Assembly (NCBI RefSeq): GCF_030646165.1
Contig: NZ_JAUTDO010000011.1
Span: forward strand, 62,001 to 126,000
Direction: 5' to 3'
Length of the DNA stretch: 64,000 nt
Source: Conexibacter sp. CPCC 206217
GTDB taxonomy: Bacteria > Actinomycetota > Thermoleophilia > Solirubrobacterales > Solirubrobacteraceae
Below are positions 32,241 through 64,000 of the stretch, piece by piece. A program made the translations under genes and the position numbers. Every line of letters starts with the position of its first letter. The stretch's first letter is position 1. The notes below the pieces were generated by a model. The model saw only the letters and a list, made by a program, of their open reading frames with translations, was not told the origin of the DNA and searched no databases.

Positions 32241-32246
32241 CGTCAG

Positions 32247-32513: not shown

Positions 32514-32514
32514 T
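32494..32514 (+). other. attL: core of the integrative element in tRNA-Glu
   Basis: This 21-base segment (T loop through one base past the tRNA end, starting TTCGAATCC) is identical to 42622-42642. The integrase gene lies just inside the second copy, so these are attL and attR of the 10.1-kb element. Confidence 0.85.
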
Positions 32515-32521
32515 CACCGAA

Positions 32522-46003: not shown

Positions 46004-46141
46004 TCGTTCCTCCATCGACGGTGGCATGGGCGACCGTCTCGCTGCGGGACCGCTCCGCGCCCGAGCCTCGCGCAGGCCCCGGGCCCCGCAAGGGACCTGA
46101 GTCCCTTCGTCGCGCGCTCGGCTGTGGCAGGGTTGCGGGTG

Positions 46142-46849: not shown

Positions 46850-46942
46850 GCGGCGCCGCCGGATGAGCCCTTCCCGCCACCGGCCGACGCACGCGCAGCG
46901 AACGCGTCCGGGCTCGTCCGGCCCATCGCGCGACCGCCGTGC

Positions 46943-48673
46943 TCACGACGGGGGCGCCGGACCCCAAGAAGTCGCGCCCTGTGCGATGTGCTCGGCGGTC
47001 AGGTACGCGAGCGCCATGATCGTGGTGGTGGGGTTGTAGCTGGGGTTGGTGGGGAACTGGCCGCCGCCGATGGCGAACAGACCGGCACACTCGTGGGTCT
47101 CACCGTGGCGGTCGACCACGGACGCCGCCGGGTCCTCGCCCATCCGGTGGGTGCCGACTTCATGGGTGGAGAGGTGCCAGGCCGGGCGCGGGGTCTCGTT
47201 CCAGAACTCGGTCATGCCCATCTCCTGACCGATCCGGCGCTTGATCCGCAGGTGGTACTCGACCGAGGCGACGTCGTGGTCAGTCCAGTCGTGGGTGATT
47301 CGCAACGCCGGTTGGCCCCACGGGTCCTCGACGTGCGGATCGAGGTCGATCGTCGCGTGCTCGGACGGGAGGCTCGCCGTCTGCGCGTACATCGCGTGCA
47401 TGCGGCGGAAGTTCTGCCGCGCCCACTCCTTCATGCCTGCACCCCATGTCGGGGCGTGCGGCGGCATCGCGTGCATTCCCTCGATCGGCTGGATGTCTCC
47501 CGAGTGGCTGGTGATCGCCGAACCCCACAGCACGCCGAGGTCGTTGTCGGGAATCAGCTCCGCGTTGACGTCGTCGATCACGCTCGCCGCCGTCAACGGC
47601 CCCATGAACGAGTTCGTGTACTCGGGCATCAGGCCGGCGAACATGCCGTAGTTGTGGGTCATGAAGTACTTGCCGGTGCAGCCGTTGCCGTCCACGCCGG
47701 ACACGAGCAGCAGCCGAGTGTTCTCGAGCGAGTAGCAGGCGAGCACCACGCGATCGGCCAACAGCTCGCGGCGGCGGCCGTCCGGGTCGATGTACCGGAC
47801 GCCTCGCACCCGCCGTCCGTCGTCGCTGCGCAGGACCTCGATCACGCGGTGATGCGGCCGCAGGTCGAGGTTGCCCGTCATCAGGCCCTTCGGCACCGAC
47901 GTGACGTGCGTGGACGTCTTCGCGTCGACGTGACACGGGTAGCCGTGGCAGAAGCCGCAGTAGGTGCAGCCGGAGCGGCCCTCGGCGAAGTCGTCGGTCG
48001 TCACGATCGCGGCCGGCTGGGGGAACGGGTGGTATCCGAGCCGACGAGCCGCCTCCACGAAGCGCTTGTCGCCGGCGCCGTTGCGCAGCGGCGGCATCGG
48101 GAAGTCCCGCGCGCGCGGCGATTCGAACGGATTGCCGCCCTCGATCGATCTGCCTCTGACGTTGCCTGCGCGACCTGAGACGCCCTGCTCCCACTCGACG
48201 CGGTCGAAGTACGGCTCCAGCTCGTCGTAGGTGATCGGCCAGTCGACCACGTCGGTGCCCTCCGGCAGCGCGCTCCTGCCCCAGCGCGCGACGAGCTCGG
48301 TGCGCATGCGGAAGTCTGCCGCCCGCAGCCGCCAGGAGGCGCCGCCCCAGTGGACGGTGCCTCCGCCCGTGCCCAGCGACGGCGGCAGATGCAGCGGCTC
48401 GTCGACCGCGAGCGGCCCGACCGCCCACGGCAGCACCGTCGCTCTGGAGCGGGCGTCAGGGCGCCAGGTGATCGGGTCACGGCCCATGTGCGGGACGATC
48501 TCCTTGCGGACGTAGTACTTGATCTCGTCGTGCTTGAAGCGCACGTCGTCGCCGTCGTATGCCGGGCCTTTGTCGAACCCGACGACCTTGGCGCCGGCGC
48601 TTGCCAGCTCGGCTGCGACGATCGCGCCCGAGGCGCCCATCCCGACCACGATCGCGTCGATCTGCTCGCTCAT
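46943..48673 (-). CDS. GMC-type FAD dehydrogenase with Cys-rich motif (gluconate 2-dehydrogenase large-subunit-like)
   Basis: The product has 576 residues. The FAD motif VVGMGASGAIVAAELA starts near residue 9. A cysteine cluster GCTYCGFCHGYPCH near 235-250 and the HVTSVPKG segment match the large subunit of gluconate/2-keto-gluconate dehydrogenases. The end contains GTHRMGEDPAASVVD and the GMC closing GGGQFPTNPSYNPTTT. Its ATG overlaps the stop of the subunit-3-like gene, so they should form one complex. It probably oxidises an alcohol or sugar-acid group; the substrate here is unknown. Confidence 0.85.
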   Translation of the reverse strand: MSEQIDAIVVGMGASGAIVAAELASAGAKVVGFDKGPAYDGDDVRFKHDEIKYYVRKEIVPHMGRDPITWRPDARSRATVLPWAVGPLAVDEPLHLPPSLGTGGGTVHWGGASWRLRAADFRMRTELVARWGRSALPEGTDVVDWPITYDELEPYFDRVEWEQGVSGRAGNVRGRSIEGGNPFESPRARDFPMPPLRNGAGDKRFVEAARRLGYHPFPQPAAIVTTDDFAEGRSGCTYCGFCHGYPCHVDAKTSTHVTSVPKGLMTGNLDLRPHHRVIEVLRSDDGRRVRGVRYIDPDGRRRELLADRVVLACYSLENTRLLLVSGVDGNGCTGKYFMTHNYGMFAGLMPEYTNSFMGPLTAASVIDDVNAELIPDNDLGVLWGSAITSHSGDIQPIEGMHAMPPHAPTWGAGMKEWARQNFRRMHAMYAQTASLPSEHATIDLDPHVEDPWGQPALRITHDWTDHDVASVEYHLRIKRRIGQEMGMTEFWNETPRPAWHLSTHEVGTHRMGEDPAASVVDRHGETHECAGLFAIGGGQFPTNPSYNPTTTIMALAYLTAEHIAQGATSWGPAPPS

Positions 48674-49272
48674 CGCGCATGCTCCTGCCCGCGCTCGGCA
48701 TGCTCGCGGCGCAGGTCCGCCAGCGTCTTGACCGGCAGGTCGAGGGCGTCGAACCCGTACGTGCCGTGCTGGCCCTCGCCGTAGCCCCAGTACGCGCCGG
48801 GGAAGCCGAGCAGCCGCCAGCCGAGGCCGTCGCGGTTGCCGCCGTAGACCGGGTCGCAGAAGGTCCCCTGGATCACGTGCTCGCGCACGACCGCGAAGAA
48901 GTACGCCAGCCGCGCCTGGCGCGCGTCGCCGGTCGCCGCCTGCGGCCGCTGCGCCGCGAGCGGATCGCAGAGCACGGTCAGCAGTTCATCCTGCTGGGTC
49001 TCGCTCAGCTTCGCGAACGGCGCGTCGCTGCGCTCGATCGCAAACGCGTCGAGCTCCTCGCAGCCGCGCCGGTAGAGCTCGCGGAGGTTGGCGTAGGCGC
49101 CCGTCAGCGCACGGTCGACGTAGACGACCGCACCGGCCTCGCGCGCGCCCGGGTCGTGCTCGTCGCCGGGCAGGATGCGGCCGGCGAGCGCGTCGACCGT
49201 CGCCGCCTCACGGTGGTTGAGGCAGGTCAGCACCGTGAGCGCCAGCAGCACGCCCTGCGCATCGACCGCCAT
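48670..49272 (-). CDS. Gluconate 2-dehydrogenase subunit-3-like protein
   Basis: The product has 200 residues. NHREAATVDALAGRILPGDE then PGAREAGAVVYVDRAL is the signature of the small subunit 3 family. YFFAVVREHVIQGTFCDPVY and WGYGEGQHG are also typical of the group. No Tat signal is seen, unlike most relatives, so the complex may stay cytoplasmic or travel with a partner. It overlaps both neighbours at start and stop. Confidence 0.8.
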   Translation of the reverse strand: MAVDAQGVLLALTVLTCLNHREAATVDALAGRILPGDEHDPGAREAGAVVYVDRALTGAYANLRELYRRGCEELDAFAIERSDAPFAKLSETQQDELLTVLCDPLAAQRPQAATGDARQARLAYFFAVVREHVIQGTFCDPVYGGNRDGLGWRLLGFPGAYWGYGEGQHGTYGFDALDLPVKTLADLRREHAERGQEHAR

Positions 49273-50855
49273 CAGGCGCCGGCCCGGTCCGCCGCCGTCG
49301 GCGCGAGCGTCCTGCCGAGCGCGAAGTCCGCCGCGCGCTCGCCGATCATCACGATCGTGGCGTTCGGGTTGCCGCGGATCATGTGCGGCAGCACCGAGCC
49401 GTCGGCCACGCGCAGCCCCTCGCAGCCGAACACGCGCAGCTCGTCGTCGACGACGCGGCCGATCGCGCACGTCGAGGTGGGATGGAACCAGCCCATCCCT
49501 CTGCGCTCGATGTGCTCGAGCAGGTCCTCGTCGCTGTCGGATCTGGGATAGACGAGCCGCTCGGTCTCGTAGTCCTTGATCGGCGCGTGGTCGGCGATCT
49601 CCATCGCGATCCGCATCCCGGCGACCTGCACGCGGCGGTCGTGCTCGGTTTGGAAGTGGTTGTGCACGATCCGCGGCTTGGCGAGCGGATTGGACGAGCG
49701 CAGCGCGACCGTGCCCGTGCTGGTCGGCCGTGTGACCTCGCTGATGTAGGTGTAGGCCGGCTGGGTCATCGCGCCGACGCCGTCGCCGGCCAGCATCACC
49801 GGCGCGACGATGATCTGCACGTCGGGCACCGGCTCCGACGGGGCCGTGCGGAAGAAGCCGCCGGCTTCGACGACGTTGGACGACAGCCGGCCGCCGCCGT
49901 CGCGCTCGTAGCGCTCCCAATCCTCGGCGCTGCCGATCCCGAGCAGGCTCTCGCCGGTCACGCCGACGATGAACGGCGTCCCGGGGTGGTCCATCAGGTT
50001 GGCGCCGACGGGCAGCTCCTCGCGCAGCTCGATTCCCATCTCGCGCAGGTGGGCGGCCGGGCCGATGCCCGAGAGCATCAGCAGCTGCGGCGTGTTGTAC
50101 GCGCCGGCGGCGAGGATCACCTCCGTGCCGGCGTGCAGCTGCTGCACCGTCCCGTCCCGGAGCAGCACCTCGACGCCGACCGCGCGACGGCCCTCGAACA
50201 GGATCCGCGTCGTCTGGGCGTGGGTCAGCAGCTCGAAGTTGGGGCGCTCCAGCGCCGGGCGCACGTAGGCGTCGGCGGTCGACCAGCGCTTGCCGTCCCG
50301 CTGGTTGAGCTGCCAGAAGCCGACGCCCTCGCGCTCGGGGCCGTTGAAGTCGTCGAGGCGGTGGTGGCCGGCGACCTGCGCGGCCTGCACCCATGCCTCG
50401 GTCAGCTTGTTGGTCGAGACGCGGTCGGAGACGACGAGCGGACCGGTGCTGCCGTGCACGCCGGACTCGAAGCGGACGTTGCCCTCGGCGCGCTTGTAGT
50501 AGGGCAGCACGTCCTCCCACGACCAGCCGCGCAGGCCGGCGGCCGTCCACTCCTCGAAGTCGAGCGGCATGGCGCGCACGTAGAGCATGGCGTTCATCGA
50601 GGAGGTGCCGCCGAGCACCTTGCCGCGCGGGTAGGGGAGACGGCGGCCGCCGAGGAAGGGCTCGGGCTCCGACCAATACTCCCAGTCGCCCGGGGTCGCG
50701 TACTGCCCGCTCCAGAGCGACGGGATCTTGTACTCGTTGCCCGCGTCCTGTCCGCCGGCCTCGACCAGCAAGACCCGTGCGGACGTCTCCTCGCTCAGGC
50801 GCCCGGCGGCTGCGGCGCCGCCCGAACCGGCGCCGACGACGATGTAATCGTGCAT
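49272..50855 (-). CDS. GMC-family oxidoreductase (choline-dehydrogenase-like)
   Basis: The product has 527 residues. MHDYIVVGAGSGGAAAAGRL carries the FAD GxGxxG motif, and the ATG at 50855 has GAGGAG eight bases upstream. GKVLGGTSSMNAMLYVR and GAYNTPQLLMLSGIGP are the two GMC signatures, and HPTSTCAIG holds the catalytic His region. It oxidises an alcohol to an aldehyde. It directly precedes the subunit-3-like gene, so the operon has two GMC-type flavoproteins. Confidence 0.88.
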   Translation of the reverse strand: MHDYIVVGAGSGGAAAAGRLSEETSARVLLVEAGGQDAGNEYKIPSLWSGQYATPGDWEYWSEPEPFLGGRRLPYPRGKVLGGTSSMNAMLYVRAMPLDFEEWTAAGLRGWSWEDVLPYYKRAEGNVRFESGVHGSTGPLVVSDRVSTNKLTEAWVQAAQVAGHHRLDDFNGPEREGVGFWQLNQRDGKRWSTADAYVRPALERPNFELLTHAQTTRILFEGRRAVGVEVLLRDGTVQQLHAGTEVILAAGAYNTPQLLMLSGIGPAAHLREMGIELREELPVGANLMDHPGTPFIVGVTGESLLGIGSAEDWERYERDGGGRLSSNVVEAGGFFRTAPSEPVPDVQIIVAPVMLAGDGVGAMTQPAYTYISEVTRPTSTGTVALRSSNPLAKPRIVHNHFQTEHDRRVQVAGMRIAMEIADHAPIKDYETERLVYPRSDSDEDLLEHIERRGMGWFHPTSTCAIGRVVDDELRVFGCEGLRVADGSVLPHMIRGNPNATIVMIGERAADFALGRTLAPTAADRAGA

Positions 50856-50896
50856 CTGACGTGCTCCTCGTGTGGCGGGTGTTGTCTCGTTCTCGA

Positions 50897-51994
50897 TCAC
50901 GACATGCAGCCCCGGGCGTCGACGGTCCAGCGCTGCACCGTGCGCCCGTCGCGTTGCACGTCGGCCTCCGCGAAGGCGTTGACGACCGGGCACGCATGGT
51001 TGGGGATGATCGTGAGCTGCTCGCCGACGGCGATCGGCTCGCCCTCCGCGACCTGCAGCCAGCCGTGCTCCTCCGACAGCGCGACGAGCGTGATCCCAGG
51101 CCGCTCGGCGACCACGCCGAAGCCGGTCGTCGTCTGCGTCCCGTGCGCGCCACGGTCGAGCGTCAGCGCCTTGGAGCCGGCGTCGACGATCGCGCGCTGG
51201 GGCGTCGGCGTGCTGACGACCGTCGTCAGCACCGAGAGCGCGCAGCGCGCGGCCGGCGCGACGCCGAGAGCGAGTTGGTTGGCGTCGTTGAAGACGTAGT
51301 TGCCGGGGCGGACCTCGGTCAGGCCGGGCACGCTCAGCGTGCCGGCGACGCCGGGGGTCGAGCCGGTGCTGACGATCTCGACCGCGTGCCCGTCCGCTCG
51401 CAGCGCGCCGGCGACCGCGACGAGCCGCTGCGCCTCGTCGCGCGCGACCGCCGCGCGCTGCTCGGGGTCGGGTACGCCGTAGGTCGCGCCCTCGTGGCTG
51501 CAGACGCCGCGCAGTCGCAGCGACGGCAACGTCGCGACAGCGGCTGCGAGCGTGCGTGCGCTCGGTTCGTCCACGCCGACGCGGTGGCTGCCTGCGTCGA
51601 CCTTGATCAGCACGTCGAGCGGGTCCGGCTCGCCGGCCATCGCTTCGGCCAGCGCTCGCGCCATCGGCTCCGCGTCCACGATCGTCATCACGTGGGCGCG
51701 GCGCGTCAGCGCACGCAGTCGCGCCAGCTTCGGCGCACCGATGAGCGGATAGCAGACGAACAGCTCTGTCAGCCCGCGGTCAGCGAGCGCCTCTGCCTCC
51801 GACAGCTTGGCCGTCGTCAGCCCGAGCGCGCCCAGCGCGAGCTGGCGGCGGCCGATCTCGGCCATCTTGTGCGTCTTGACGTGCGGACGCAGCCCCAGGC
51901 CGGCGTCGCGGGTCCGCTGCGCCATCGCGCTCAGGTTGCGCTCCAGACGGCCGAGGTCGATCTGCAGGCGCGGCGTGTCGGCCAGCTCGGTCAA
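50897..51994 (-). CDS. Fold-III PLP enzyme, D-serine-dehydratase-like (paralogue 1)
   Basis: The product has 365 residues. PLP attaches at Lys40 in LGLRPHVKTHK. The alanine-racemase-like barrel is followed by a beta domain ending in IIPNHACPVVNAF. In the eukaryotic-type D-serine dehydratases the two zinc ligands are His and Cys spaced as H-x-C, as here, while D-threonine aldolases have H-x-D. Beta-elimination of a D-3-hydroxy amino acid is therefore more likely than aldol cleavage. A second family member lies at 54891-55970. The gene follows the M24 gene by four bases. Confidence 0.8.
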   Translation of the reverse strand: MTELADTPRLQIDLGRLERNLSAMAQRTRDAGLGLRPHVKTHKMAEIGRRQLALGALGLTTAKLSEAEALADRGLTELFVCYPLIGAPKLARLRALTRRAHVMTIVDAEPMARALAEAMAGEPDPLDVLIKVDAGSHRVGVDEPSARTLAAAVATLPSLRLRGVCSHEGATYGVPDPEQRAAVARDEAQRLVAVAGALRADGHAVEIVSTGSTPGVAGTLSVPGLTEVRPGNYVFNDANQLALGVAPAARCALSVLTTVVSTPTPQRAIVDAGSKALTLDRGAHGTQTTTGFGVVAERPGITLVALSEEHGWLQVAEGEPIAVGEQLTIIPNHACPVVNAFAEADVQRDGRTVQRWTVDARGCMS

Positions 51995-51998
51995 CTGC

Positions 51999-53207
51999 TC
52001 ACCACGTCACTTTCGGGCTCGACGTGACCTGCTCGGCACCGTCCTCGGTGACGATCAGCATGTCCTCGATGCAGACCGAGCCGATCTCGGTCGGCACGAT
52101 CATCGGCTCGATGTAGAACGTCATGCCGGCACGCAGCGGGTCGGCGCCCGCCACGAAGTAGGGATCCTCGGCCAGCTCCAGGCCGCCGCCGTGGCTGGTC
52201 GTGAAGTCCCACGCGGCGAAGCCGTGATCGGCGATGACGGCCGACATCGTCTGCAGCACCACGATCGGCTCGACGCCGTCGCGCACGACCGCCAAGCCGG
52301 CCTCCTCGGCCGCCAGGCACGCCTCGAACAGCGCGACGTCCTGCGGGCGCGCTCTGCCGGGGATCCCCACGCGCGCCATGTCGGACTGGTAGCCGCGATA
52401 CTTGGCGGCCATGTCGACGTTGAGGAACTCGCCCGGCTCGACGACCTTGCCGCGCAGCGCGTAGACGTTCTTCATGAAGCTGCGCTGGCCCGAGGAGATG
52501 AACGTCTGGCATCTCTCGGCGCCGGCCGCGACGGCGGCGCCGATGATCGCGCCCGCGACCTCGCTCTCGGTCACGCCCGGCTCGATTATCGCGAGGCCTG
52601 CGTCCATCGCCGCGGACGTGATGACGCCCAGCTCGCGGATCGCCTCCTGCTCGGCCGCGCTCTTGATCGCGCGCATGCCGCGCAGCAGCTTGGAGCCGTC
52701 GACCAGCACCGCGTCGGGCAGCCGCTCGCGCAGCTCAGCGTGGATCCGCATCGGCAGATGGCGCGTGTCGGCGTAGGCGACCCTCCCGCGTGCGAGGCCC
52801 CACTCGCCGATCAGGTCGGCGGCGCCCGCCACCACGGTGTGCGGGCGCTTGGTCGACTGCGCGTTGAGCAGCACGCGCACGTCTCTCATCCAGGTCGTCT
52901 GGATGTTCGAGTGCATCGGCTCGCCGTGGTAGATCGCATTCGTGATCAGCGTCGGCTCGCCCGCCTGCGGGATCAGCACGACCGTGTCGCCCCAGTAGTT
53001 GAAGAACCCGCTCAGATAGCGGACGCTGCATTCGGCGTCGCCGCCGTAGACGACCATCGCGTCGATCTGCTCGTCGGCCAGCAGGCGCTGCAGCCGGTCG
53101 ATCCGCGCCCGGTACTCGGCGATCTCGAAGTCGAGCTCGAGTATCGGCTCGCGGTCCTCCCATGAGAACGGGACACGAGCATCGATGTCGCTCGCAAATG
53201 CACTCAT
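51999..53207 (-). CDS. M24-family metallohydrolase (Xaa-Pro peptidase/creatinase-like)
   Basis: The product has 402 residues. The N-terminal creatinase-like domain starts IAEYRARIDRLQRLLADE. The pita-bread domain retains all five metal ligands: Asp in FLNVDMAAKYRG, Asp in GYQSDMARVG, His in TSHGGGLEL, Glu in FYIEPMIVP and Glu in VCIEDMLIVTE. Members hydrolyse Xaa-Pro peptides or, in the creatinase branch, guanidino compounds. Its start is one base after the GntR gene ends, so they are co-transcribed. Confidence 0.88.
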   Translation of the reverse strand: MSAFASDIDARVPFSWEDREPILELDFEIAEYRARIDRLQRLLADEQIDAMVVYGGDAECSVRYLSGFFNYWGDTVVLIPQAGEPTLITNAIYHGEPMHSNIQTTWMRDVRVLLNAQSTKRPHTVVAGAADLIGEWGLARGRVAYADTRHLPMRIHAELRERLPDAVLVDGSKLLRGMRAIKSAAEQEAIRELGVITSAAMDAGLAIIEPGVTESEVAGAIIGAAVAAGAERCQTFISSGQRSFMKNVYALRGKVVEPGEFLNVDMAAKYRGYQSDMARVGIPGRARPQDVALFEACLAAEEAGLAVVRDGVEPIVVLQTMSAVIADHGFAAWDFTTSHGGGLELAEDPYFVAGADPLRAGMTFYIEPMIVPTEIGSVCIEDMLIVTEDGAEQVTSSPKVTW

Positions 53208-53936
53208 TCAGGTGTCCTCTTTTCGTGACGGGTCCTGCTCGTTGGTGACGATCCAGGCAAAGTCGGAGATGTGCTGGCGCATGCGGGTGCGCGCGAGGTC
53301 GGGATCGCGCGCCGCGATCGCCTCGTAGATGCCCTCGAGGTCGGCCAGTCCCTTTGCGCGCGAGCTGGCCGGCACGCGTGAGAGCACGACCTCGAGGCCG
53401 CCGAGCACGCCGGCGAAGACGATCGCGGCCGCTCGATTGCCGGATGCCACCGCGACGCGCTGGTGGAAGGCGTGGTCGTCGTAGAACAACGACTCGCTCT
53501 CGTGCGCCTGGCGCAACAGCTCCTCGAGCGCCGAGAGATCCTCCGCGGTGGCGCGCTTCGCGGCCCAATACGCGTTGGCGCCTTCCAGCGACTGGCGCAG
53601 CTCGGCCAGCTCGAGCACCGAGATGTCGCCGATCTCGACGAGCAGCTCGAGCTGATCTCTGAACTGGCGTCCACCGTCCATGCGACGGACGAACGTGCCG
53701 CCGGTGCTGCCTGGCCGGACCTCGACCAACCCGGCGCGCTCGAGCACGCGGATCGCCTCCAGCACGCCGTTGCGGCTGACGCCGAACTGCGTCGCCAGCT
53801 CGCGCTGGTTGGGCAGCCGGTCGCCCGGTCTCAGCTTGCCGCTGGAGATCGATTCGCGCACCTGCTCGACGATCGACTCGAATGTTCGCACCGGTGTGAT
53901 CCGGTTGTAGAGCGTCTCAGTGACCCTCGGCATCAT
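53208..53936 (-). CDS. GntR-family regulator (FadR/FCD subfamily)
   Basis: The product has 242 residues. The winged helix shows IVEQVRESISSGKLRPGDRL, PNQRELATQFGVSRNGVLEA, IRVLERAGLVEVRPG. The FCD domain has the metal-ligand pattern DDHAFHQRVAVASGNR and a C-terminal DPDLARTRMRQHI. It probably senses a small carboxylic acid and controls the surrounding catabolic genes. FCD regulators usually bind TnGTnnnACnA; TGGTTCAACCA is present at 63564-63574 upstream of the transporter. Confidence 0.9.
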   Translation of the reverse strand: MMPRVTETLYNRITPVRTFESIVEQVRESISSGKLRPGDRLPNQRELATQFGVSRNGVLEAIRVLERAGLVEVRPGSTGGTFVRRMDGGRQFRDQLELLVEIGDISVLELAELRQSLEGANAYWAAKRATAEDLSALEELLRQAHESESLFYDDHAFHQRVAVASGNRAAAIVFAGVLGGLEVVLSRVPASSRAKGLADLEGIYEAIAARDPDLARTRMRQHISDFAWIVTNEQDPSRKEDT

Positions 53937-53981
53937 TCCCCTTTGGTTGGCACGAGGACCGTATTGTCGTGAGGCGCTCGG

Positions 53982-54848: not shown

Positions 54849-54890
54849 CGTTGCTGCTCCTCGAGCTCTGTTCGGCAGGTCGGCATCGCG

Positions 54891-55970: not shown

Positions 55971-57553
55971 CTCGCGCGCAGCACCCTTCCCGGCGTGGCG
56001 CCCGTCAGCTGCGCGTCGCGCACGACCGGGACGCCGGCGACGAGCACGTCGCGCACGCCGACCGGCGCCAGCAGCGGCTCGTCGAAGGTCGCGCAGTCGG
56101 CGATCGTCACGGGGTCGAGCACGACGAGGTCGGCGACGCAGCCGGCCTCGACGCGGCCGCGATCGCTCAGCCCGAAGCGCTCCGCGGGCATGCGCGTCAT
56201 CTTGTTGATCGCGGTCCCCAGCTCCAGCAGCCCGCGCTCGCGGCTGTAGCGGCCGAGCACGCGCGCGAAGCTGCCGGCCCACCGCGGGTGCGGCTTGCCG
56301 GCGAGCGGGATCCCGTCGGAGCCGACCATCGTGAGCGGGTGCGCGAGGACGCGCTCGACGTCGTCTTCGTCGAGCATGTGCAGGACCATCGTCACCTCGG
56401 CGCGGGCGTCGGCCAGCACGTCGAGCACGAGCGCGTCGGGCTCGCTTCCGGCGTCGCGCGCGAGCGCGGCGATCGAGCGGCCCTCCAGCTCCGGCGCGGA
56501 GCGGCAGCTGGAGATCACGATCCCGTCCCAGCCGGCAGCGCGCGCGTAGTTCTCCCAGCCGGGCGGTCCTTGCACGAATGCGCGCCGGATCCGCTCGCGG
56601 GCGCGCGGATCCTCGAGCCGCTGCAGCATCGCGGCGATCCCGCCGGCCTGCGCCCACGGCGGCAGGAGCGTGTACAGCAGCGTGCTCGCGGCCGTGTAGG
56701 GGTAGACGTCCAGCGTCACGTCGAGCACGGCGGCGGCGCGATCGATCTGCGCCAGCGTCTCGCGCGTGCGCCCCCAGTTCTCGCGGCCGGCGACCTTGTG
56801 GTGGGAGATGTGCAGCGGGCAGCCGCCGCCCCGGGCGATGGCGATCGCCTCCTCGATCGAGCCGGTCACCATGTCCGTCTCGCCGCGCATGTGCGTCGCG
56901 TACGGGCGTCCGTAGCGGGCCGAGACGCGCGCCAGCTCGATCAGCTCCTCGACCTGCGCGTAACGGCCGGGCGGGTAGATCAGGCCGGAGGAGAAGCCGA
57001 CGACGCCCTGCTCCAGCGCCGCGTCGAGCATCCGCAGCATCCGCTCCAGCTCCTCGGCGCTCGCCGGCCGGTCGTCGAAGCCCATCACGCCGGCGCGCAG
57101 GCTGCCGTGGCCGATCAGCGGCGCGAGGTTGCCGTGCAGCCTGGCCGCCTCGGCAGCGCTCGCGTAGCCGTCGAAGTCGGTCCAGGGGATCTCGGCCGGG
57201 CCGAACAGCGTCTCGGTGTGCCGCCGGAACGAGCCGGCATGCTCGGGCAGATGGGGGAAGGGGCTGAAGCCGCAGTTGCCGCAGACCTCGGTCGTGACGC
57301 CTTGGCGCACGTCGGCGGTCGCGAGGTGCTCGCCCTCGGGACCGAAGAAGCAGGTCATGTCGGAATGCGTGTGGGCGTCGATGAAGCCCGGCGCGACCGC
57401 GAGGCCGGACGCGTCGATTCGCTGCGCCGCCTCGATCCCGTCCAGCGTGCCGACGGCTTCGATGCGCCCGTCCCGGACGGCCACGTCGGCCGGCTGGGGC
57501 CGGCCCGCGCCGTCGAAGACGAGGCCGCCGGTGATCAGCAGGTCAGATGGCAC
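55967..57553 (-). CDS. N-acyl-D-amino-acid deacylase (D-aminoacylase)
   Basis: The product has 528 residues, the family's usual length. PGFIDAHTHSDM supplies the first metal histidines, and VCGNCGFSPFP and LIGHGSLR are family hallmarks. THMRGETDMVTG with LHISHHKVAG and MVGSDGIPLAGKPHPR complete the metal-dependent barrel. It removes the acyl (or carbamoyl-like) group from an N-substituted D-amino acid. The first 11 bases overlap the end of the reductase gene and its end overlaps the aldolase gene, so the enzymes are co-produced. Confidence 0.9.
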   Translation of the reverse strand: MPSDLLITGGLVFDGAGRPQPADVAVRDGRIEAVGTLDGIEAAQRIDASGLAVAPGFIDAHTHSDMTCFFGPEGEHLATADVRQGVTTEVCGNCGFSPFPHLPEHAGSFRRHTETLFGPAEIPWTDFDGYASAAEAARLHGNLAPLIGHGSLRAGVMGFDDRPASAEELERMLRMLDAALEQGVVGFSSGLIYPPGRYAQVEELIELARVSARYGRPYATHMRGETDMVTGSIEEAIAIARGGGCPLHISHHKVAGRENWGRTRETLAQIDRAAAVLDVTLDVYPYTAASTLLYTLLPPWAQAGGIAAMLQRLEDPRARERIRRAFVQGPPGWENYARAAGWDGIVISSCRSAPELEGRSIAALARDAGSEPDALVLDVLADARAEVTMVLHMLDEDDVERVLAHPLTMVGSDGIPLAGKPHPRWAGSFARVLGRYSRERGLLELGTAINKMTRMPAERFGLSDRGRVEAGCVADLVVLDPVTIADCATFDEPLLAPVGVRDVLVAGVPVVRDAQLTGATPGRVLRAR

Positions 57554-59528
57554 GTGCCGCCCGCTCGCCCTCGTGGATCGCCTCGAGCATCGTGCGGCTG
57601 GCGAGTGCGTCGCCGATCCGCTCCAGCTGGCCGACCCTGTCCTTGAGGTCGAAGTAGACGTCGGCGACCGGTGCGTGCCAGCCCGCGAGCACGACCGTCT
57701 CGACCCCGTCGAGCGTCTTGCTGGCGCCAGCGCTCGAGACGTGCACCAGACCGGGCTCGACGCCGACCACGTTGGTGAACGGATGCAGCTCGATCTCGCT
57801 GGAGAAGAGCCGGGGGAGCAGCTTCTGCTGCGTGAAAGCGCCGAGCTTGGCGCCGACGTAGGGGAGCGTGGTCGCGAGCTTGACGCGGTGACCTCTGCCA
57901 GCGAGCTGGAGCGCGACCGAGGCGCTCTTCCAGCTGCCCTCGCCGTCGTCGACGACGAGCACGGAGTCGCCGACCGGCGCGTCGTCCTCGAGCAGGTTCC
58001 AGACCGAGATCACGTGCTCGGAGTCGAGTCCCGGGACCTCCCAGATGCCGAACGACTTGTTGCCGATCAGCTCGCGTCTGGGTGCCGAACCGGTGGCGAC
58101 GACGACCGCGTCGGGCTCCAGCGCGAGCACCGCGTCCGCGTCGGCGTCGACGCCGACGCGGACGTCCACGCCGTGCTGCTCGGCGCTGTGGCGCAGCCAG
58201 CGGATCGTCTCGCCCAGCTCCTCGCGCCCGGCGACCGACGCAGCCAGCCGCAACTGCCCGCCGAGCTGGTTGCGGCGCTCCAGCAGCGTCACGTCGAGCC
58301 CGCGGCGCGCCGCGACCTCCGCTGCCTTGAGCCCGGCCGGTCCGCCGCCGATCACGACGACGCGCTTGGCGTTGGCGGCGGGCGCGAGCGTCCCGATCCC
58401 CAGCTGCCGCTCGTTGCCCGCCGCCGGGTTGTGCACGCAGGTGATCGGCGCCGCCTTGAAGAGCATGTCGATGCAGCCCTGGTTGCACGCGATGCATCCG
58501 CGCACGTCCTCGCGGCGGTCGGCGATCAGCTTGTTGACCGTCTCGGGGTCGGAGATGTGCTGGCGCGTCATCGCGACCATGTCGACGTGTCCGCTGCGCA
58601 GCGCCTGCTCGGCGATCTCGGGGTCGTTGAGCCGCCCGACCGCGAAGATCGGCATCGCCGGGACAGCCTCCTTGATCGACGTCGCGAGGCCGAGCCAGAG
58701 CCCCCGCGGGTGCTGCATGTCGGGGATGTTCTGGCCGTCGGATCCGTACGTGCTGGCCTTCACGACCATGTAGTCGACGGTCTCGCTCGCCGCGATCCGC
58801 CGGGCGATCTCCTGCGCCTCGGGCAGCTCGATCCCGCCCGGGCTGTAGTCGTGCCCCTGGACCTGGATGCCGACGACGAAGTCGGGGCCGACCGCCGCGC
58901 GGACCGCCTCCAGCGTGCGGTGCAGCAGCCGGGTGCGGTTCTCGAGCGAGCCGCCGTACTCGTCCTCGCGTCTGTTCATGTAGGGCGAGACGAACGACGA
59001 CAGCAGGTAGCCGCCGTAGCCGGAATGGATCTCGACGCCGTCCATGCCGGCCTGCTTGGCGCGCACCGCCGTCGCCGCGTGCCCCTCGACGATCGCGTCG
59101 ATGTCCTCCAGCTCCATCGCCTTCGGCATCTCGCCGACGGCCGGGCACGGGATCGCGGACGGTCCCCACACCTCGCGCTTGGTCCAGAGCCCGTTCTGCT
59201 GACGACCGGAGTGGCCCAGCTGCATGAACATCTTGGTGCCGTGGCGGTGGACCTCGTCCGCGATCCGGCTCAGGCCCGGAATCACCGCGTCGGTGAAGCC
59301 GTCGACCTCGCGGGCGTTGTTGCGCGACGTCTCGTGGACGCCGGGGAAGCCCATCACGATCAGGCCGATGCCGCCCTTGGCGCGGTCGCCGTAGTAGGCG
59401 ACATGCCGGTCGGAGGCGGTGCCGTCGTCGGCGGCGAAGTTGGTGACGTGCGAGGTCATCATGACCCGGTTGCGGATCGGGACGTTGCCGACCGTGATCG
59501 GCGAGAGCAGGTGCTCGTAGGTGCTCAT
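57543..59528 (-). CDS. NADH:flavin oxidoreductase / TMADH-like Fe-S flavoprotein
   Basis: The product has 661 residues from the ATG at 59528 (AAGGAG ten bases upstream). The OYE barrel has HSGYGGYLLSSFVSPYMNRR near 168-187. Cys345, Cys348, Cys352 and Cys364 bind a 4Fe-4S cluster. The second half is a pyridine-nucleotide-reductase domain with VVIGGGPAGLKAAE near 392. The layout is that of 2,4-dienoyl-CoA reductase, trimethylamine dehydrogenase and N-methylproline demethylases. An oxidative demethylation or enoate reduction of the imported compound is possible. Confidence 0.88.
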   Translation of the reverse strand: MSTYEHLLSPITVGNVPIRNRVMMTSHVTNFAADDGTASDRHVAYYGDRAKGGIGLIVMGFPGVHETSRNNAREVDGFTDAVIPGLSRIADEVHRHGTKMFMQLGHSGRQQNGLWTKREVWGPSAIPCPAVGEMPKAMELEDIDAIVEGHAATAVRAKQAGMDGVEIHSGYGGYLLSSFVSPYMNRREDEYGGSLENRTRLLHRTLEAVRAAVGPDFVVGIQVQGHDYSPGGIELPEAQEIARRIAASETVDYMVVKASTYGSDGQNIPDMQHPRGLWLGLATSIKEAVPAMPIFAVGRLNDPEIAEQALRSGHVDMVAMTRQHISDPETVNKLIADRREDVRGCIACNQGCIDMLFKAAPITCVHNPAAGNERQLGIGTLAPAANAKRVVVIGGGPAGLKAAEVAARRGLDVTLLERRNQLGGQLRLAASVAGREELGETIRWLRHSAEQHGVDVRVGVDADADAVLALEPDAVVVATGSAPRRELIGNKSFGIWEVPGLDSEHVISVWNLLEDDAPVGDSVLVVDDGEGSWKSASVALQLAGRGHRVKLATTLPYVGAKLGAFTQQKLLPRLFSSEIELHPFTNVVGVEPGLVHVSSAGASKTLDGVETVVLAGWHAPVADVYFDLKDRVGQLERIGDALASRTMLEAIHEGERAARAI

Positions 59529-59556
59529 GGCGAGAACTCTCCTTGCGCGGACGGGG

Positions 59557-61131
59557 TCAGCTGACCGGCTCGGTCGCCGCCACGCCGTAGCAGGCCGACA
59601 GGATCCGGTGCTCGTCGGGGTGATCGAGGTCGGCGACCAGCTCGCCCTCACGCATGACCAGCACCCGCTTGCAGAGCGTGATCACCTCTTCGATCTCGGA
59701 TGAGATCACCAGCAGGCCCTTGCCCTGCTCGGCAAGCTGCTCGATCAGCTTGTAGATGTCCTGCTTGGCGCCGACGTCGACGCCCTGCGTCGGCTCGTCG
59801 AGGATCAGCAGTCTCGCGTTCGCGTTGAGCCATTTCGCCAGCAGCACCTTCTGCTGGTTGCCGCCCGACAGGGTCGAGAGCTCGCGCTCCGGGTCGGGCG
59901 GGCGCACGTCGAGCTGCTCCAGCAGCTCGCGCGTGCGCTTGCGCTCGCTGCCTCTGCGGACGACCCGCAGCAGCGGGTTGAGCAGGTAGCGCCGCAGGCT
60001 CGGCAGCGTCAGGTTCTCGCGCACGCTCATCGTCATCACGCCGCTGAGCGCGCGGCGGTCCTCGGGGAGCAGGCCGATCCCGGACGCGATCGCGTCGCTC
60101 GGGCCGCGCAGCCGCATCGCGCGGCCGTCGACCTCGATCGTGCCCGCGTCGGCCCTGTGGTCTGCGAAGATCACGTGCGCAAGCTCGCTGCGGCCGGCGC
60201 CGACGAGGCCCGTCAGCCCGACCAGCTCGCCGGCATGCAGCTCGAAGGAGACGTCCTTGACGGCATCTCGCCAGCTGACGCCGTCGAGCTTGAGGACGAC
60301 TCTCTCGCCCGGCGTGTGCTCCTTGACCTCGTAGACCGCGAGGCTGCGTCCGACGATCGCCTCGACGAGCGCCTGGCGCCCCGCGAAGGCGCCGATCGGC
60401 TTCGACGCGACGCGCTCTCCGTCCTTGAGCACGGTGACGTGGTCGGCGATCTCGAAGATCTCGTTGAGCCGGTGCGAGACGTAGACGACCGCGACGCCCT
60501 GGGAAGTGACTCTGCGGATGACCTCGTAGAGGTTCTGGATCTCGGTGTCGGTGAACGAGGCGGTCGGCTCGTCGAAGACCATCAGCCGTGCGTCGGCCAG
60601 CAGCCCGCGCGCGATCGTCGCCAGGCACTGCTCTGCGATCGACAGCTCGGCGACGTCCCGGCGCAGGTCCACGTCGAGACCGACCTCGGCCGCGACCTCA
60701 CGGGCGGTGGCGTGCATCGCGCGCCAGTCGACGATGCCGCGCAGCCGTCGTCGGTAGCCGAGGCCGAGCGTGATCACCTCTGCGACCGACAGCGACGGGA
60801 TCACCTGCGGGTCCTGGTGGATGAACGCCAGACGCGCGTGCGCGCTGTCGCGCGGGTTGCGGATCGCCGCGTGCTCGCCATCGATCAGTATCTCGCCCGC
60901 GTCGGGAAGGTAGGCGCCGGCGAGGAGCTTGATCAGCGTGCTCTTGCCGGCGCCGTTCTCGCCCACCAGCGCGTGCACCCTGCCGCCGTGGAAGGCCACG
61001 TCCACGTCGTGCAGCGCGCGCACGCCGGGAAACGACTTCGACAATCCGCGGACCTCGACGACCGGGGCGGGGGCGGAAGCGACGTCCGCGCCGGGGCGGT
61101 CGCCGTCGCGCTGCTGCAGCGAGTCGCTCAT
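59557..61131 (-). CDS. ABC importer ATPase, duplicated (RbsA/MglA type)
   Basis: The product has 524 residues with two nucleotide-binding halves. The first has Walker A GENGAGKST (57-65) and Walker B LMVFDEPTASF. The second has a degenerate Walker A (GLVGAGRSELA), signature LSGGNQQKV and Walker B LLILDEPTQGVD, the normal pattern for this carbohydrate-uptake-2 class. It energises import through the adjacent permease. Its start overlaps the permease stop by four bases. Confidence 0.93.
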   Translation of the reverse strand: MSDSLQQRDGDRPGADVASAPAPVVEVRGLSKSFPGVRALHDVDVAFHGGRVHALVGENGAGKSTLIKLLAGAYLPDAGEILIDGEHAAIRNPRDSAHARLAFIHQDPQVIPSLSVAEVITLGLGYRRRLRGIVDWRAMHATAREVAAEVGLDVDLRRDVAELSIAEQCLATIARGLLADARLMVFDEPTASFTDTEIQNLYEVIRRVTSQGVAVVYVSHRLNEIFEIADHVTVLKDGERVASKPIGAFAGRQALVEAIVGRSLAVYEVKEHTPGERVVLKLDGVSWRDAVKDVSFELHAGELVGLTGLVGAGRSELAHVIFADHRADAGTIEVDGRAMRLRGPSDAIASGIGLLPEDRRALSGVMTMSVRENLTLPSLRRYLLNPLLRVVRRGSERKRTRELLEQLDVRPPDPERELSTLSGGNQQKVLLAKWLNANARLLILDEPTQGVDVGAKQDIYKLIEQLAEQGKGLLVISSEIEEVITLCKRVLVMREGELVADLDHPDEHRILSACYGVAATEPVS

Positions 61132-62150
61132 GACCGTCTCAGCAGGCCGGAGGCGGCGACGGCGAGGATCAGCAGCACGCCCTTGACGATCGCCTGCCAC
61201 TCCATCGGCACGCTCGTGAGCGTCATGCCGTTGGTCAGCAGCGCGAGCGCGAGCACGCCGACGATCGTGCCGGCGATGTTGAAGCGACCCTGGCGGAACG
61301 TCGCCGAGCCGAGGAACGCCGCGGTGAACGCGTCGAGCAGCAGCGTGCCCTCCGACTGCAGCGATCCGATGTTGGTGGTCGTCGCGATGACGACGCCGGC
61401 GACGCCGCAGCAGGTGCCCGAGACGATGAACGCGATCATCCGCGTGCGCCCGACGTTGACGCCCGACAGGCGCGCCGCGTTCGCGTTGCCGCCGACGGCG
61501 TGGATCCAGCGTCCGACGTCGGTGAGGTGGAGTATCGCCGCGAGCAGCGCGAGCACGGCGACGGCGATCAGGATCGTCGCGTTGATGCCCAGGATCTGCG
61601 TGTCGCCGAGCGAGTCGAACGACGGCGGCAGACCGGTCGAGATCGTGCCGGTCTCGGTCAGCAGCAGTCCCAGCCCGTTGAGCACGAACAGGCCCATCGC
61701 GAGCGTCGCGATGAACGCGTTGACGCGCAGCTTCGTGACGACGATGCCGTTGACGGTGCCGATCACGGAACCGAGCAGGACCGCGAAGACGAAGGAGAGG
61801 AAGACCCATCCGTGCGTGACGCCGAGCTTGGCCGCGAGGATGTCGGCGACCATCGCGGTCGCCGCGATCGAGAGGTCGAACTCGCCGACGATCAGCACGA
61901 CCGTCACGCCGCCGGCGATGATCGCCAGCGTCGCGCTGTTGGTCAGCACGTTGGAGAGGTTGTTGGTGGTCAGGAAGGTCCCCGACGGGGCCCGGATCGC
62001 GAAGTACGCGATCAGGGCCGCGAAGAAGACGAGCGTGCCGTACCGCTCGAAGAAGAGCCGCCAGTCCCGGCCCGCCGCACGTGCGGGTCCGTCGGGGCGC
62101 CGCGGATCGACGGCAGCGGGCGAGGGTGTGGTGTCAGTCAGCTCGGTCAT
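61128..62150 (-). CDS. ABC importer permease (RbsC type)
   Basis: The product has 340 residues with about ten membrane helices. GGVTVVLIVGEFDLSIAATA is the conserved GGxDLSVG-like region of RbsC/YtfT permeases, with GEFDLS instead of GGIDLS. GNANAARLSGVNVGRTRMIA is the cytoplasmic EAA-like loop. It forms the channel for the substrate delivered by the binding protein. The gene lies 20 bases after the binding-protein stop. Confidence 0.92.
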   Translation of the reverse strand: MTELTDTTPSPAAVDPRRPDGPARAAGRDWRLFFERYGTLVFFAALIAYFAIRAPSGTFLTTNNLSNVLTNSATLAIIAGGVTVVLIVGEFDLSIAATAMVADILAAKLGVTHGWVFLSFVFAVLLGSVIGTVNGIVVTKLRVNAFIATLAMGLFVLNGLGLLLTETGTISTGLPPSFDSLGDTQILGINATILIAVAVLALLAAILHLTDVGRWIHAVGGNANAARLSGVNVGRTRMIAFIVSGTCCGVAGVVIATTTNIGSLQSEGTLLLDAFTAAFLGSATFRQGRFNIAGTIVGVLALALLTNGMTLTSVPMEWQAIVKGVLLILAVAASGLLRRS

Positions 62151-62170
62151 CGGACGATGGGCACGCGCGG

Positions 62171-63298
62171 TCAGGCGTTGGGGTCGTAGATCGGGAGGAT
62201 CGTGCTGGTCGCGTACTGGCCTCTGGGCGGCAGGTTGGCCGCGGTGACGAGCACGCTGGGAACGGTCGTGACCGGGCCCAGCGACTCGCGCGAGGCGCCG
62301 TTGAAGAGCTCGTCGAGCGCTCCCACGGCAGCGCGCGACATCAACTCGCAGTCGGCGCCGTTGGTCGCCGCGAAGCCGGGGTTCTCGCGCATCAGGTCGA
62401 GCGTCTCGAGGTTGCCGTCGGAGCCCGTGACCCAGACGTCGTCGCGGCCGGACTGGTCGATCGCCTGCAGCGCACCCATCGCCGGCTCGTCCCAGCCGCA
62501 CAGGACGGCCTTGAGGTCCGGGTACTTGGGCAGCATCGCGGCGACCTTCTGGCGCGCGTCGTCGATCTGGCCCGGAACGCGAACCGGGACCTTCTCGACG
62601 ATTCTGACGTCGGGCGCGTAGTAGCCCAGGCCGGCCTCCCACATGATCCGGCGCTGCACGCCCGGCGTGTTGTCGTCGAAGTAGAGGACCGCGACGTCGC
62701 CCGAGTAGTCGATCCGCTGGAGCACGTACTCGAGCATCGGGCCCATCCCGATCCAGTCGCTCGGGTAGATCACGTGCTCGATCCCGTTGGTCGGCTCGTT
62801 CCAGATGCCGACGACCGGGATGCCCTGGTCGGTGGCGGCCTGCAGTCTGTTGCCGAGCGCGGCCGAGGGGCCGTTCAGGATCACCAGGCCGTCGACCTTC
62901 TTGGTGATGAAGTCCTGCGCGATCGCACCCATCTTGGTCGTGTCGCCGGCGGCGTCCACGACCTCGAACTTCCAGTCGATCTCGGGACCGATCCGGTGGA
63001 ACTCCTTGATCCCGCGAGCGAGCGTGCCGACCTCCGAGACGTAGGAGACGACGCCGATCGTCTTGCCTCCTCTGATTCTCGAGAGGTCGATGTCCTTGCC
63101 CGACGGCCCGACGGGCGCGTTGTTGGTGCCGCCTCTGGCCTGACCGTCGGAGGTCGTGGTCTTCTGTGCGTCCGCGTTGCCGTCGGAGCCGCACGCGGCG
63201 AGCAGGCCGCCGCTGGCGGCGAGCCCGGCCGTGATGCCGGTCGTCGCAAGGAATCGCCGACGGCTCACGCCGGTCCTGGTGATCTCAGACTCTTCCAT
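62171..63298 (-). CDS. ABC importer substrate-binding lipoprotein (periplasmic-binding type 1)
   Basis: The product has 375 residues. An N-terminal twin-arginine-like SRRRFLATTG and lipobox LLAACGSDG (Cys36) indicate Tat or Sec export and lipid anchoring. The mature part is a RbsB-like two-domain fold: GKTIGVVSYVSEVGTLARGI, VDGLVILNGPSAALGNRLQA, ALQAIDQSGRDDVWVTGSDG. Sugar-binding relatives also bind purines, autoinducers and polyols, so substrate class is open. It is the first gene of the catabolic operon. Confidence 0.9.
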   Translation of the reverse strand: MEESEITRTGVSRRRFLATTGITAGLAASGGLLAACGSDGNADAQKTTTSDGQARGGTNNAPVGPSGKDIDLSRIRGGKTIGVVSYVSEVGTLARGIKEFHRIGPEIDWKFEVVDAAGDTTKMGAIAQDFITKKVDGLVILNGPSAALGNRLQAATDQGIPVVGIWNEPTNGIEHVIYPSDWIGMGPMLEYVLQRIDYSGDVAVLYFDDNTPGVQRRIMWEAGLGYYAPDVRIVEKVPVRVPGQIDDARQKVAAMLPKYPDLKAVLCGWDEPAMGALQAIDQSGRDDVWVTGSDGNLETLDLMRENPGFAATNGADCELMSRAAVGALDELFNGASRESLGPVTTVPSVLVTAANLPPRGQYATSTILPIYDPNA

Positions 63299-63605
63299 TA
63301 CTCACAGTTCCTCTCGTGCATCCCAATGACAAATCGCACTCTCGCTCGATGAGCGAGATCAATCCCCAGCTACATCCAAGCAATGCGGTCTGTGTGAGAC
63401 CGCCGGTGCGGGGTTAGTCACTGAACTAACAGTTACGGCAGCACGGACGATGACGGACCGTTACCCGTAAGTTCACTAACTGGGGCGCGCCGTCGGCCTG
63501 ATTCGAACGAGCGTCGCGACCTATGGGTTCATCTCTCCACCGACCCCCTGTGACTAGGGTCAATGGTTCAACCAAGAACGACCCTACCATTCGGCCAAGG
63601 TTGCG
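63299..63605. promoter_or_regulatory. Palindrome-rich control region of the catabolic operon
   Basis: This 307-base gene-free stretch upstream of the binding-protein gene holds four palindromes: GCGGTCT-GTGTG-AGACCGC (63385-63403), GTTAGT-CACTGA-ACTAAC (63413-63430), AGTT-CACT-AACT (63470-63481) and TGGT-TCA-ACCA (63564-63574). The last fits the GntR/FCD operator pattern. Base composition is lower in GC than the flanking genes. No tRNA or small gene was found in it. Confidence 0.6.
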
Positions 63606-64000
63606 TCAACCACTTTTTCCGGCGAGCTCCAGACGCTGCGCCTTGAAGCTCGAGATGACCGAGGAGACGGCCTGCTCGATCGGGATCCGCTCGACGCTGG
63701 AGGCCCCGACGAAGCCCTGCGCGCCGGTTTCGCGATACAGCGTCTCGACGTTCTCCGGGATGTCGAACGGGCCGCCGTGGGCGAGCACGAGAACGTCGTC
63801 GCGTCTGGCGCGCGCGGCTTCGAGCATGCCGTTGACGCCGGCGACGGCGACGTCGAGAGGTGAGACCTCGGTGAAGCCGTCCATCCCGCCGCTGGTGCCG
63901 CCGACGTGGGTCACGACGCAGTCGACGCCGGCGTCGGCCATCGCCGCAGCCTCCTCCGGCAGGAACACGTAGGACATCGTGAAAAGCCCGCGTTCACGGG
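63606..64000 (-). CDS. PEP-hydrolase-family (TIM-barrel) protein, 5' end outside window
   Basis: The frame is open to the window edge and reads RERGLFTMSYVFLPEEAAAM just inside it. It continues with AGVDCVVTHVGGTSGGMDGF, DVLVLAHGGPFDIPENVETL and GFVGASSVERIPIEQAVSSV. These match the C-terminal part of proteins named phosphoenolpyruvate hydrolase family (TIM-barrel signal-transduction-like), often found beside Tm-1-like proteins. Its function is not established. It ends 307 bases before the transporter operon on the same strand and may belong to it. Confidence 0.75.
   Translation of the reverse strand, partial: RERGLFTMSYVFLPEEAAAMADAGVDCVVTHVGGTSGGMDGFTEVSPLDVAVAGVNGMLEAARARRDDVLVLAHGGPFDIPENVETLYRETGAQGFVGASSVERIPIEQAVSSVISSFKAQRLELAGKSG

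Follow-up and report, generated by a model that had tools for sequence, protein, structure and literature searches.

What does a bacterium take up and degrade with an importer, a D-aminoacylase, two pyridoxal 5'-phosphate (PLP) enzymes and several redox enzymes that are encoded together? This question is raised by 13 closely spaced minus-strand genes, which codon scoring with Pfam and NCBIfam places at positions 46943-63298 of a 64,000-nucleotide stretch of Conexibacter sp. CPCC 206217 (the window, C3:62001-126000 of a 5.9-Mb assembly of 97.4% completeness and 6.6% contamination). The cluster is real and probably a functional catabolic operon, the complete set of which was seen, among the genomes searched, in this one alone. 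Tentatively, and with slightly more doubt than confidence, we read it as an operon induced for growth on a 2-amino compound that has an N-acyl group, the D configuration and a beta-hydroxyl, in the form of the acid or of the corresponding alcohol.

For every family named in an earlier reading of the DNA letters (the original prediction), there is a minus-strand gene that scores significantly in Pfam or NCBIfam. The one-strand cluster with repeated overlaps that it described is also borne out.

Layout of the cluster

Gene bounds were set by codon scoring and families by Pfam and NCBIfam scores. In order of transcription, the genes are as follows.

sbp, 62171..63298, minus strand: RbsB-type binding protein; PF13407; N-terminal RRRFL and lipobox-like LLAAC
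abcP, 61128..62150, minus strand: RbsC/AraH-type permease; PF02653; alternative start at 62174
abcA, 59557..61131, minus strand: RbsA/AraG-type double ATPase; PF00005 in two stretches (scanned as 59557-61809); NF008442 at 491 bits against a cut-off of 689
oye, 57543..59528, minus strand: flavin mononucleotide (FMN) domain and pyridine-nucleotide oxidoreductase domain; PF00724 and PF07992
daa, 55967..57553, minus strand: long-form N-acyl-D-amino-acid deacylase; PF07969
plpB, 54891..55970, minus strand: fold-III PLP enzyme; PF01168 and PF14031
hibadh, 53982..54848, minus strand: beta-hydroxyacid dehydrogenase; PF03446 and PF14833; TIGR01505 at 230.6 bits against a cut-off of 340.75
gntR, 53208..53936, minus strand: GntR/FCD regulator; PF00392 and PF07729
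m24, 51999..53207, minus strand: M24 metallohydrolase like Xaa-Pro dipeptidase and ectoine hydrolase; PF00557
plpA, 50897..51994, minus strand: fold-III PLP enzyme; PF01168 and PF14031; TTG start picked by score
gmc2, 49272..50855, minus strand: choline-dehydrogenase-like GMC oxidoreductase; PF00732/PF05199; NF002550 at 470 bits, under the cut-off of 605
g2dh3, 48670..49272, minus strand: gluconate 2-dehydrogenase subunit 3-like; PF13618, 97.5 bits
gmc1, 46943..48673, minus strand: GMC oxidoreductase akin to fructose dehydrogenase large subunits; C-x2-C-x2-C-x4-C; Pfam GMC_oxred_N/C

Adjacent genes overlap, by 1-11 bp, at five of the 12 junctions: gmc1/g2dh3, plpB/daa and abcA/abcP by 4 bp each, g2dh3/gmc2 by 1 bp, and daa/oye by 11 bp, provided that the GTG start of daa is correct. 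The other seven are gaps of 0-45 bp. The G+C content of the cluster (67-75%) lies within the range of the adjoining sequence, the whole window having 72%. No tRNA genes lie inside the cluster, and an Rfam scan of 44000-64000 gave no family at gathering score.

The deacylase and the two PLP enzymes

The daa protein aligns with the D-aminoacylase of PDB entry 1m7j at 351 bits. The alignment includes the HxH, GNCG, THMR, SHH and GSDG motifs, which we take to be the metal motifs of the D-aminoacylase amidohydrolases. By these motifs and the alignment, daa is a predicted member of the N-acyl-D-amino-acid deacylase family.

The plpA and plpB proteins are 35% identical to each other, and the PDB matches of both include D-threonine aldolases and D-hydroxyaspartate dehydratase. 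They share the sequence family, the RPHxK region and a metal pair with the D-threonine aldolase AxDTA (4v15) and the D-threo-3-hydroxyaspartate dehydratase (3wqc). The metal pair is His347/Asp349 in D-threonine aldolase and His/Cys in D-serine dehydratase (PMC4401734; statements on this and the other papers cited refer to the accessible part of each text). In plpA, aligned to 7dib, 3wqc and 4v15, the site reads PNHAC, a His-x-Cys pair of the dehydratase type. In plpB, aligned to its best PDB match 4v15, it reads PSHSD, a His-x-Asp pair of the aldolase type. Thus, plpA is predicted to be of the dehydratase type, with the His-Cys pair of the Zn-dependent D-serine and D-hydroxyaspartate dehydratases, and plpB has, as judged by alignment, the His-Asp pair that marks D-threonine aldolases.

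Sixteen fetched PLP homologues were aligned, 10 of them nearer plpA and six nearer plpB. The plpA group comprises eight proteins with His-x-Cys, one with His-x-Asp (L046) and one in which the pair is unclear (L009); all six members of the plpB group have His-x-Asp. Because the metal pairs divide between the homologue groups, plpA and plpB would belong to separate subfamilies of long standing rather than stem from a recent duplication. The BhcC profile, with a cut-off of 690 bits, gives 164 for plpA and 213 for plpB.

Redox enzymes and the M24 hydrolase

The PDB ranking of oye has NCR and 2,4-dienoyl-CoA reductase (DCR) on top, with histamine and trimethylamine dehydrogenases (TMADH) lower, and its Cys-rich motif reads CIACNQGC. 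The protein is thus probably nearest to the ene-reductases within the TMADH/DCR/mycofactocin OYE_2 superfamily. The YGAH motif of histamine dehydrogenase, the Tyr and His of which are presumably active-site residues of the amine dehydrogenases, reads HSGY in oye (aligned stretch of 3k30 and 6de6). Oxidation or demethylation of amines by oye was therefore rejected, as the motif is not kept and NCR and DCR score higher in the PDB. The original description of a TMADH-like flavoprotein holds at the family level, and amine oxidation is not indicated.

Against the mycofactocin OYE_2 model TIGR03997, oye scores 646 bits, under the curated cut-off of 793. The same genome has a match to the mycofactocin radical-SAM protein MftC at G000:C12:643444-644454 (656 bits against a cut-off of 265, which none of 14 controls passed). 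A link of oye to mycofactocin is possible. Relatives of oye are found in other settings: one (34%) adjoins UPF0261 and PEP-hydrolase genes (L117, G138:C25), and another (37%) has genes for an isochorismatase, a molybdopterin-binding protein and an importer of the Rbs type close by (L061, G055:C77).

The best PDB match of gmc1 is fructose dehydrogenase, and its four-cysteine motif, which we take to be an iron-sulfur cluster site, aligns with the cysteine region there. A protein of the congener G001 is 72-74% identical to gmc1. The FAD-dependent fructose and gluconate dehydrogenase complexes likewise combine a GMC large subunit carrying a cysteine motif with a subunit-3 partner. These complexes have a small subunit exported by the twin-arginine translocation (Tat) system and a cytochrome c subunit. 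In contrast, the cluster genes include no cytochrome c family, and no twin-arginine signal was seen in the N-terminus or upstream frame of g2dh3, either in the window or in G001. Two more distant g2dh3 relatives (L059 and L060) do have a Tat-like N-terminus. The g2dh3 protein is thus likely a cytosolic form, which fits action on an imported substrate, and the gmc1-g2dh3 pair suggests that the GMC/subunit-3 dehydrogenases have a branch that works in the cytosol and lacks the Tat signal.

The nearest NCBIfam family of hibadh is tartronate semialdehyde reductase, followed by HIBADH; a PDB comparison was also made. In the PDB alignment of m24 with proline dipeptidase, the Asp, Asp, His, Glu and Glu that we take to be the M24 metal ligands are aligned.

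Importer and upstream region

According to Pfam and NCBIfam, the transporter belongs with the sugar importers (Rbs/Ara) and not with those for peptides. As two PLP paralogues, one of the aldolase and one of the dehydratase type, are encoded together with a D-aminoacylase and an importer of their own, the binding protein offers a direct way to look for a natural substrate. The following features lie upstream of sbp.

Intergenic region, 63299..63605, no strand: 307 bp with three perfect inverted repeats
PEP-hydrolase-family gene, 63606..64000, minus strand: cut by the window edge, whole gene C3:125606-126481; PF09370
UPF0261 (Tm-1-like) gene, C3:126689-127894, divergent: beyond the window; PF06792/PF23189

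The inverted repeats, at 63341, 63386 and 63413, have perfect arms of 6-7 bp, and the region is a candidate operator or promoter. A pattern scan found no sigma-70-like site in it, and the upstream regions of sbp and of the UPF0261 gene have no common 14-mer when up to two mismatches are allowed. The PEP-hydrolase gene had been counted as a member of the cluster. Its family and strand are confirmed; the 307 bp between it and sbp suggest that it is probably a separate transcript.

Proposed pathway

The families, the metal and cofactor residues and the operon-like spacing are observed features, from which we infer the reactions, their order, the substrate and the induction as follows. The RbsABC-type transporter would import the substrate. 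In the cytosol, gmc2 and/or gmc1-g2dh3 would oxidise the alcohol, yielding or trimming the hydroxy acid, and the D-aminoacylase daa would then strip the N-acyl group. One or both PLP enzymes would then act on the free D-beta-hydroxy amino acid: plpA might eliminate ammonia from it and leave a keto acid, and plpB might split it by a retro-aldol reaction into an aldehyde and glycine. The products would be tidied by hibadh, which resembles tartronate semialdehyde reductase, by the flavoprotein oye, which resembles ene-reductases, and by the M24 enzyme, and the GntR/FCD regulator would control induction. As to the nature of the substrate, the importer, being of the sugar type, hints at a polyol-like compound, and the residues of the deacylase hint at one of the amino-acid type.

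Published chemistry covers the deacylation and PLP steps in the Ong pathway and, as a proposal, all steps from GMC oxidation to PLP cleavage in the chd cluster; both systems are compared below. Several observations weigh against the proposed pathway. In plpB, a Gln replaces the catalytic base His193 of AxDTA, which is His in five of its six nearest fetched homologues. Pfam found no RidA, keto-deoxy-sugar kinase or aldolase families among the cluster genes. It is not clear where the M24 and ene-reductase steps would fit, and G001 holds gmc1-g2dh3 without the D-amino-acid genes. Finally, the five probes described below found the complete set in no other genome searched, and therefore co-occurrence cannot confirm a single pathway. 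Import and degradation of a D-beta-hydroxy N-acyl compound, as originally proposed, is thus consistent with the importer, the deacylase metal motifs and the metal pairs of both PLP enzymes; co-conservation of the set is not supported, and amine oxidation by oye is not indicated.

Conservation of the genes

Five of the 13 cluster proteins (plpB, daa, oye, sbp and gmc1; plpA was not among them) served as probes, and scoring covered the best 3-10 candidates in each genome, which makes all genome counts lower bounds. Homologues of plpB were found in six of 60 other relatives at E<=1e-20 and in three of 395 other genomes of the phylum at E<=1e-40. For daa there were none in 145 other genomes of the family at E<=1e-90 and five among the 395 at E<=1e-110. 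The oye probe matched none of the 395 at E<=1e-140 and one of the 60 relatives at E<=1e-110, and sbp matched none of the 60 at E<=1e-30. Five of the 60 have gmc1 at E<=1e-60, one at 74% identity. The suggested co-occurrence of daa, both PLP paralogues and oye across Actinobacteria is not borne out by these counts. The original prediction also named genes that are not kept together as evidence against itself, and for the whole set this is largely the case, since full co-occurrence was not seen in the genomes searched.

Two- and three-gene modules do recur: a PLP enzyme beside a D-aminoacylase, M24 with GntR and a PLP enzyme, and gmc1-g2dh3 in the congener. A plpA-like neighbour is present in two (L039 and L047) of the ten loci fetched with daa (L029, L030, L039-L043, L047, L120 and L121). 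The 14 loci fetched with the PLP enzymes (L009, L010, L019-L024, L044-L046 and L122-L124) include two with daa and one with M24 and GntR. As several contigs stop near the match, the absence of partner genes is weak evidence. PLP and D-aminoacylase genes adjoin in G157, in G435, in a Chloroflexi metagenome-assembled genome and on a Variovorax plasmid. Of the five other genomes with gmc1, four were sampled at this locus (L056 and L058-L060), and each of the four has g2dh3.

A Haladaptatus plasmid with relatives of daa and oye (43% each) was rejected as a cluster, the two genes being ~44 kb apart. In L021 (7805-14403), a plpA relative lies beside MalK-type ATPase, IclR, RidA-like, amidohydrolase, SDR and SelA-like genes (Pfam, six L021 genes). 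The plpA relatives of these congeners are 44-47% identical and belong to another gene run; gene lengths are alike in L021, L022 and L023.

Some of these neighbourhoods bear on an alternative explanation, according to which the cluster would serve general scavenging of N-acyl-D-amino acids and D-amino-acid peptides from cell walls or natural products. The M24 enzyme would be a peptidase, daa the deacylase, and the PLP enzymes would act on D-Ser and D-Thr, with no special beta-hydroxy substrate. In G015, of the same family, GntR (38%), M24 (44%) and plpB-like (45%) genes are grouped with an MlrC-family M81 metallopeptidase (the M81 gene of this locus is the one among the PLP loci on which Pfam was run) and a Peripla_BP_6-type ATP-binding cassette (ABC) importer. 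In Haladaptatus, D-aminoacylase genes lie near M81 and dipeptide epimerases. The importer of the window is, however, of the sugar type, and scavenging has no need for two GMC dehydrogenases and a dehydrogenase like tartronate semialdehyde reductase. We regard this explanation as doubtful.

The congener G001 module

The operon of the congener G001 (L056:10054-19008, G001:C244) encodes on one strand a binding protein, abcA, abcP, UPF0261, the PEP-hydrolase-family protein, a VOC/glyoxalase-like protein, g2dh3 and gmc1. It resembles the window in having gmc1-g2dh3 orthologues beside PEP-hydrolase and UPF0261 genes and an Rbs-type importer, an arrangement found in this one of the four gmc1 loci. 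It differs in its binding protein and in lacking D-aminoacylase, PLP enzyme, M24 and GntR genes: tblastn of the 30.6 kb fetched gave no match (E<=1e-8) to daa, plpA, plpB, m24, gmc2, gntR or hibadh. The gmc1 proteins are 72% and the g2dh3 proteins 60% identical, and a 78% DNA match stops within g2dh3, 44 bp short of the start of that gene. The binding protein of G001 does not match sbp, and its UPF0261 protein is 56% identical to the one encoded just beyond the window, no closer than those of another family (58-60%). Only gmc1-g2dh3 are thus clear orthologues.

This comparison raises the possibility that the cluster is a patchwork of two pathways in one operon, a sugar or alcohol oxidation module (the importer, gmc1-g2dh3 and the UPF0261/PEP-hydrolase pair) and a D-amino-acid module. 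Such a patchwork would account for a one-strand module with gmc1-g2dh3 in G001 and no D-amino-acid gene match. We nevertheless consider it unlikely, as gmc1-g2dh3 of the window lie inside the same tightly spaced run as the other genes, the binding protein and UPF0261 comparisons do not tie the two modules together, and a 32% relative of oye lies near the G001 module, on the opposite strand.

Comparison with published systems

In the open-access literature on this gene combination, the paper on the Ong pathway (PMC9537276) is the sole close match, as far as the accessible texts go; papers on uric acid and on microcystin degraders are more distant. In Pseudoalteromonas prydzensis, a D-aminoacylase homologue and a fold-III PLP enzyme convert 2-acetamido-2-deoxy-D-gluconic acid (GlcNAc1A) to 2-keto-3-deoxygluconate (KDG), acetate and ammonia (PMC9537276). 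As proposed for the window cluster, a deacetylase of the D-aminoacylase fold is followed by a PLP deaminase of fold III, the substrate of which is a D-beta-hydroxy amino acid, and there are a dedicated importer and a regulator. The Ong importer is an SSS symporter, whereas that of the window is an ABC importer. The window cluster lacks the RidA and KdgK of Ong, and the accessible text on the ong enzymes names no GMC, M24, OYE or HIBADH protein (PMC9537276).

The PDB matches of daa include PpOngB, the GlcNAc1A deacetylase. Deacetylases of this type are marked by Ser292 and Gln298 in the specificity loop (PMC12017989). In daa, a Thr occupies the Ser292 column, and the Gln298 loop carries an insertion of ~41 residues and has no aligned Gln; the markers are not kept, and daa was rejected as an OngB-type deacetylase. 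It is 38% identical to an OngB-like protein of Pseudoalteromonas sp. NC201, the best PDB match of which is PpOngB (580 bits). The open reading frame layout of this NC201 stretch resembles the ong cluster. Putative OngC proteins from NC201 and from Vibrio, assigned in unannotated stretches by position, length and weak fold-III similarity, are 21-27% identical to plpA and plpB. The two OngB loci carry this distant OngC type, which tblastn detected in L121 only. With no ongC orthologue, RidA or KdgK among the cluster genes and with the daa markers missing, membership in Ong, assessed against the OngB-like protein of NC201 and one of Vibrio, was rejected. The cluster may work in an Ong-like way; the markers do not support its being an Ong system.

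It is accordingly improbable that the operon degrades an oxidised amino sugar, GlcNAc1A or a related 2-acetamido aldonate, that daa would deacetylate and plpA would deaminate to a 2-keto-3-deoxy acid. GlcNAc1A is an N-acyl-D-beta-hydroxy amino acid, OngB and OngC belong to the same broad enzyme types as daa and plpA, the importer is of the sugar type and gmc1 is sugar-dehydrogenase-like. Against this stand the altered specificity loop of daa, the distance of the putative OngC from both PLP enzymes and the absence of RidA, KDG kinase and aldolase from the cluster.

The chd cluster of Nocardia testacea CS1 has a proposed chloramphenicol route of GMC oxidation, amide hydrolysis and threonine-aldolase cleavage, a reaction order like that suggested here (PMC13400229). 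It differs in its IclR regulator, oligopeptide-type transporter and nitroaromatic genes, and its hydrolase and aldolase belong to other families, being annotated as hippurate hydrolase and L-threonine aldolase (PMC13400229). A chloramphenicol-like N-acyl 2-amino-1,3-diol, with a GMC enzyme oxidising the primary alcohol, daa deacylating and plpB cleaving a D-phenylserine-type acid to glycine and an aldehyde, is a most improbable substrate: the chd order and the chloramphenicol oxidation that the GMC gene capO enables in Pseudomonas putida favour it, but these family differences, the absence of nitroaromatic families from the cluster genes and the missing His193 of plpB oppose it.

The reductive uric acid route, which uses the D-aminoacylase homologue UacY, was set aside, as no XdhD, SsnA, YgeX or M20 family is found among the cluster genes (PMC12507026). 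The original statement that no described pathway combines these parts thus needs qualification: the Ong core and the chd order are published, and neither account, in its accessible part, holds the whole gene set of the window (PMC9537276, PMC13400229). The cluster might represent a new convergent pathway apart from both. An imported N-acyl 2-amino polyol or diol would be oxidised by GMC enzymes in the cytosol to an N-acyl-D-beta-hydroxy acid and deacylated, and the C3 stereochemistry would then choose between two PLP paralogues, one eliminating and the other performing a retro-aldol cleavage. We consider this rather doubtful.

The UPF0261/PEP-hydrolase pair and other neighbours

The locus is another case of a split Tm-1-like pair (UPF0261 and a PEP-hydrolase-like protein) beside catabolic genes. 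Among the loci examined (L092-L119), the PEP-hydrolase gene lies near UPF0261 in 17 of 20 from the phylum; none of the 20 has a daa match, several of the contigs being short. The two genes are adjacent in five of eight annotated plasmid loci, all five beside ABC importers. The bacterial relatives of plant Tm-1 may therefore have a role in catabolism. For the plant gene, an origin by horizontal transfer has been proposed (PMC5028733).

Past the gmc1 end of the cluster, a minus-strand gene at 44378-46015 encodes a protein with a PKD domain and a weak match to a beta-propeller repeat. Farther away, at 32246-32515, tRNA-Leu(CAG) and tRNA-Glu(CTC) lie on opposite strands, 109 bp apart.

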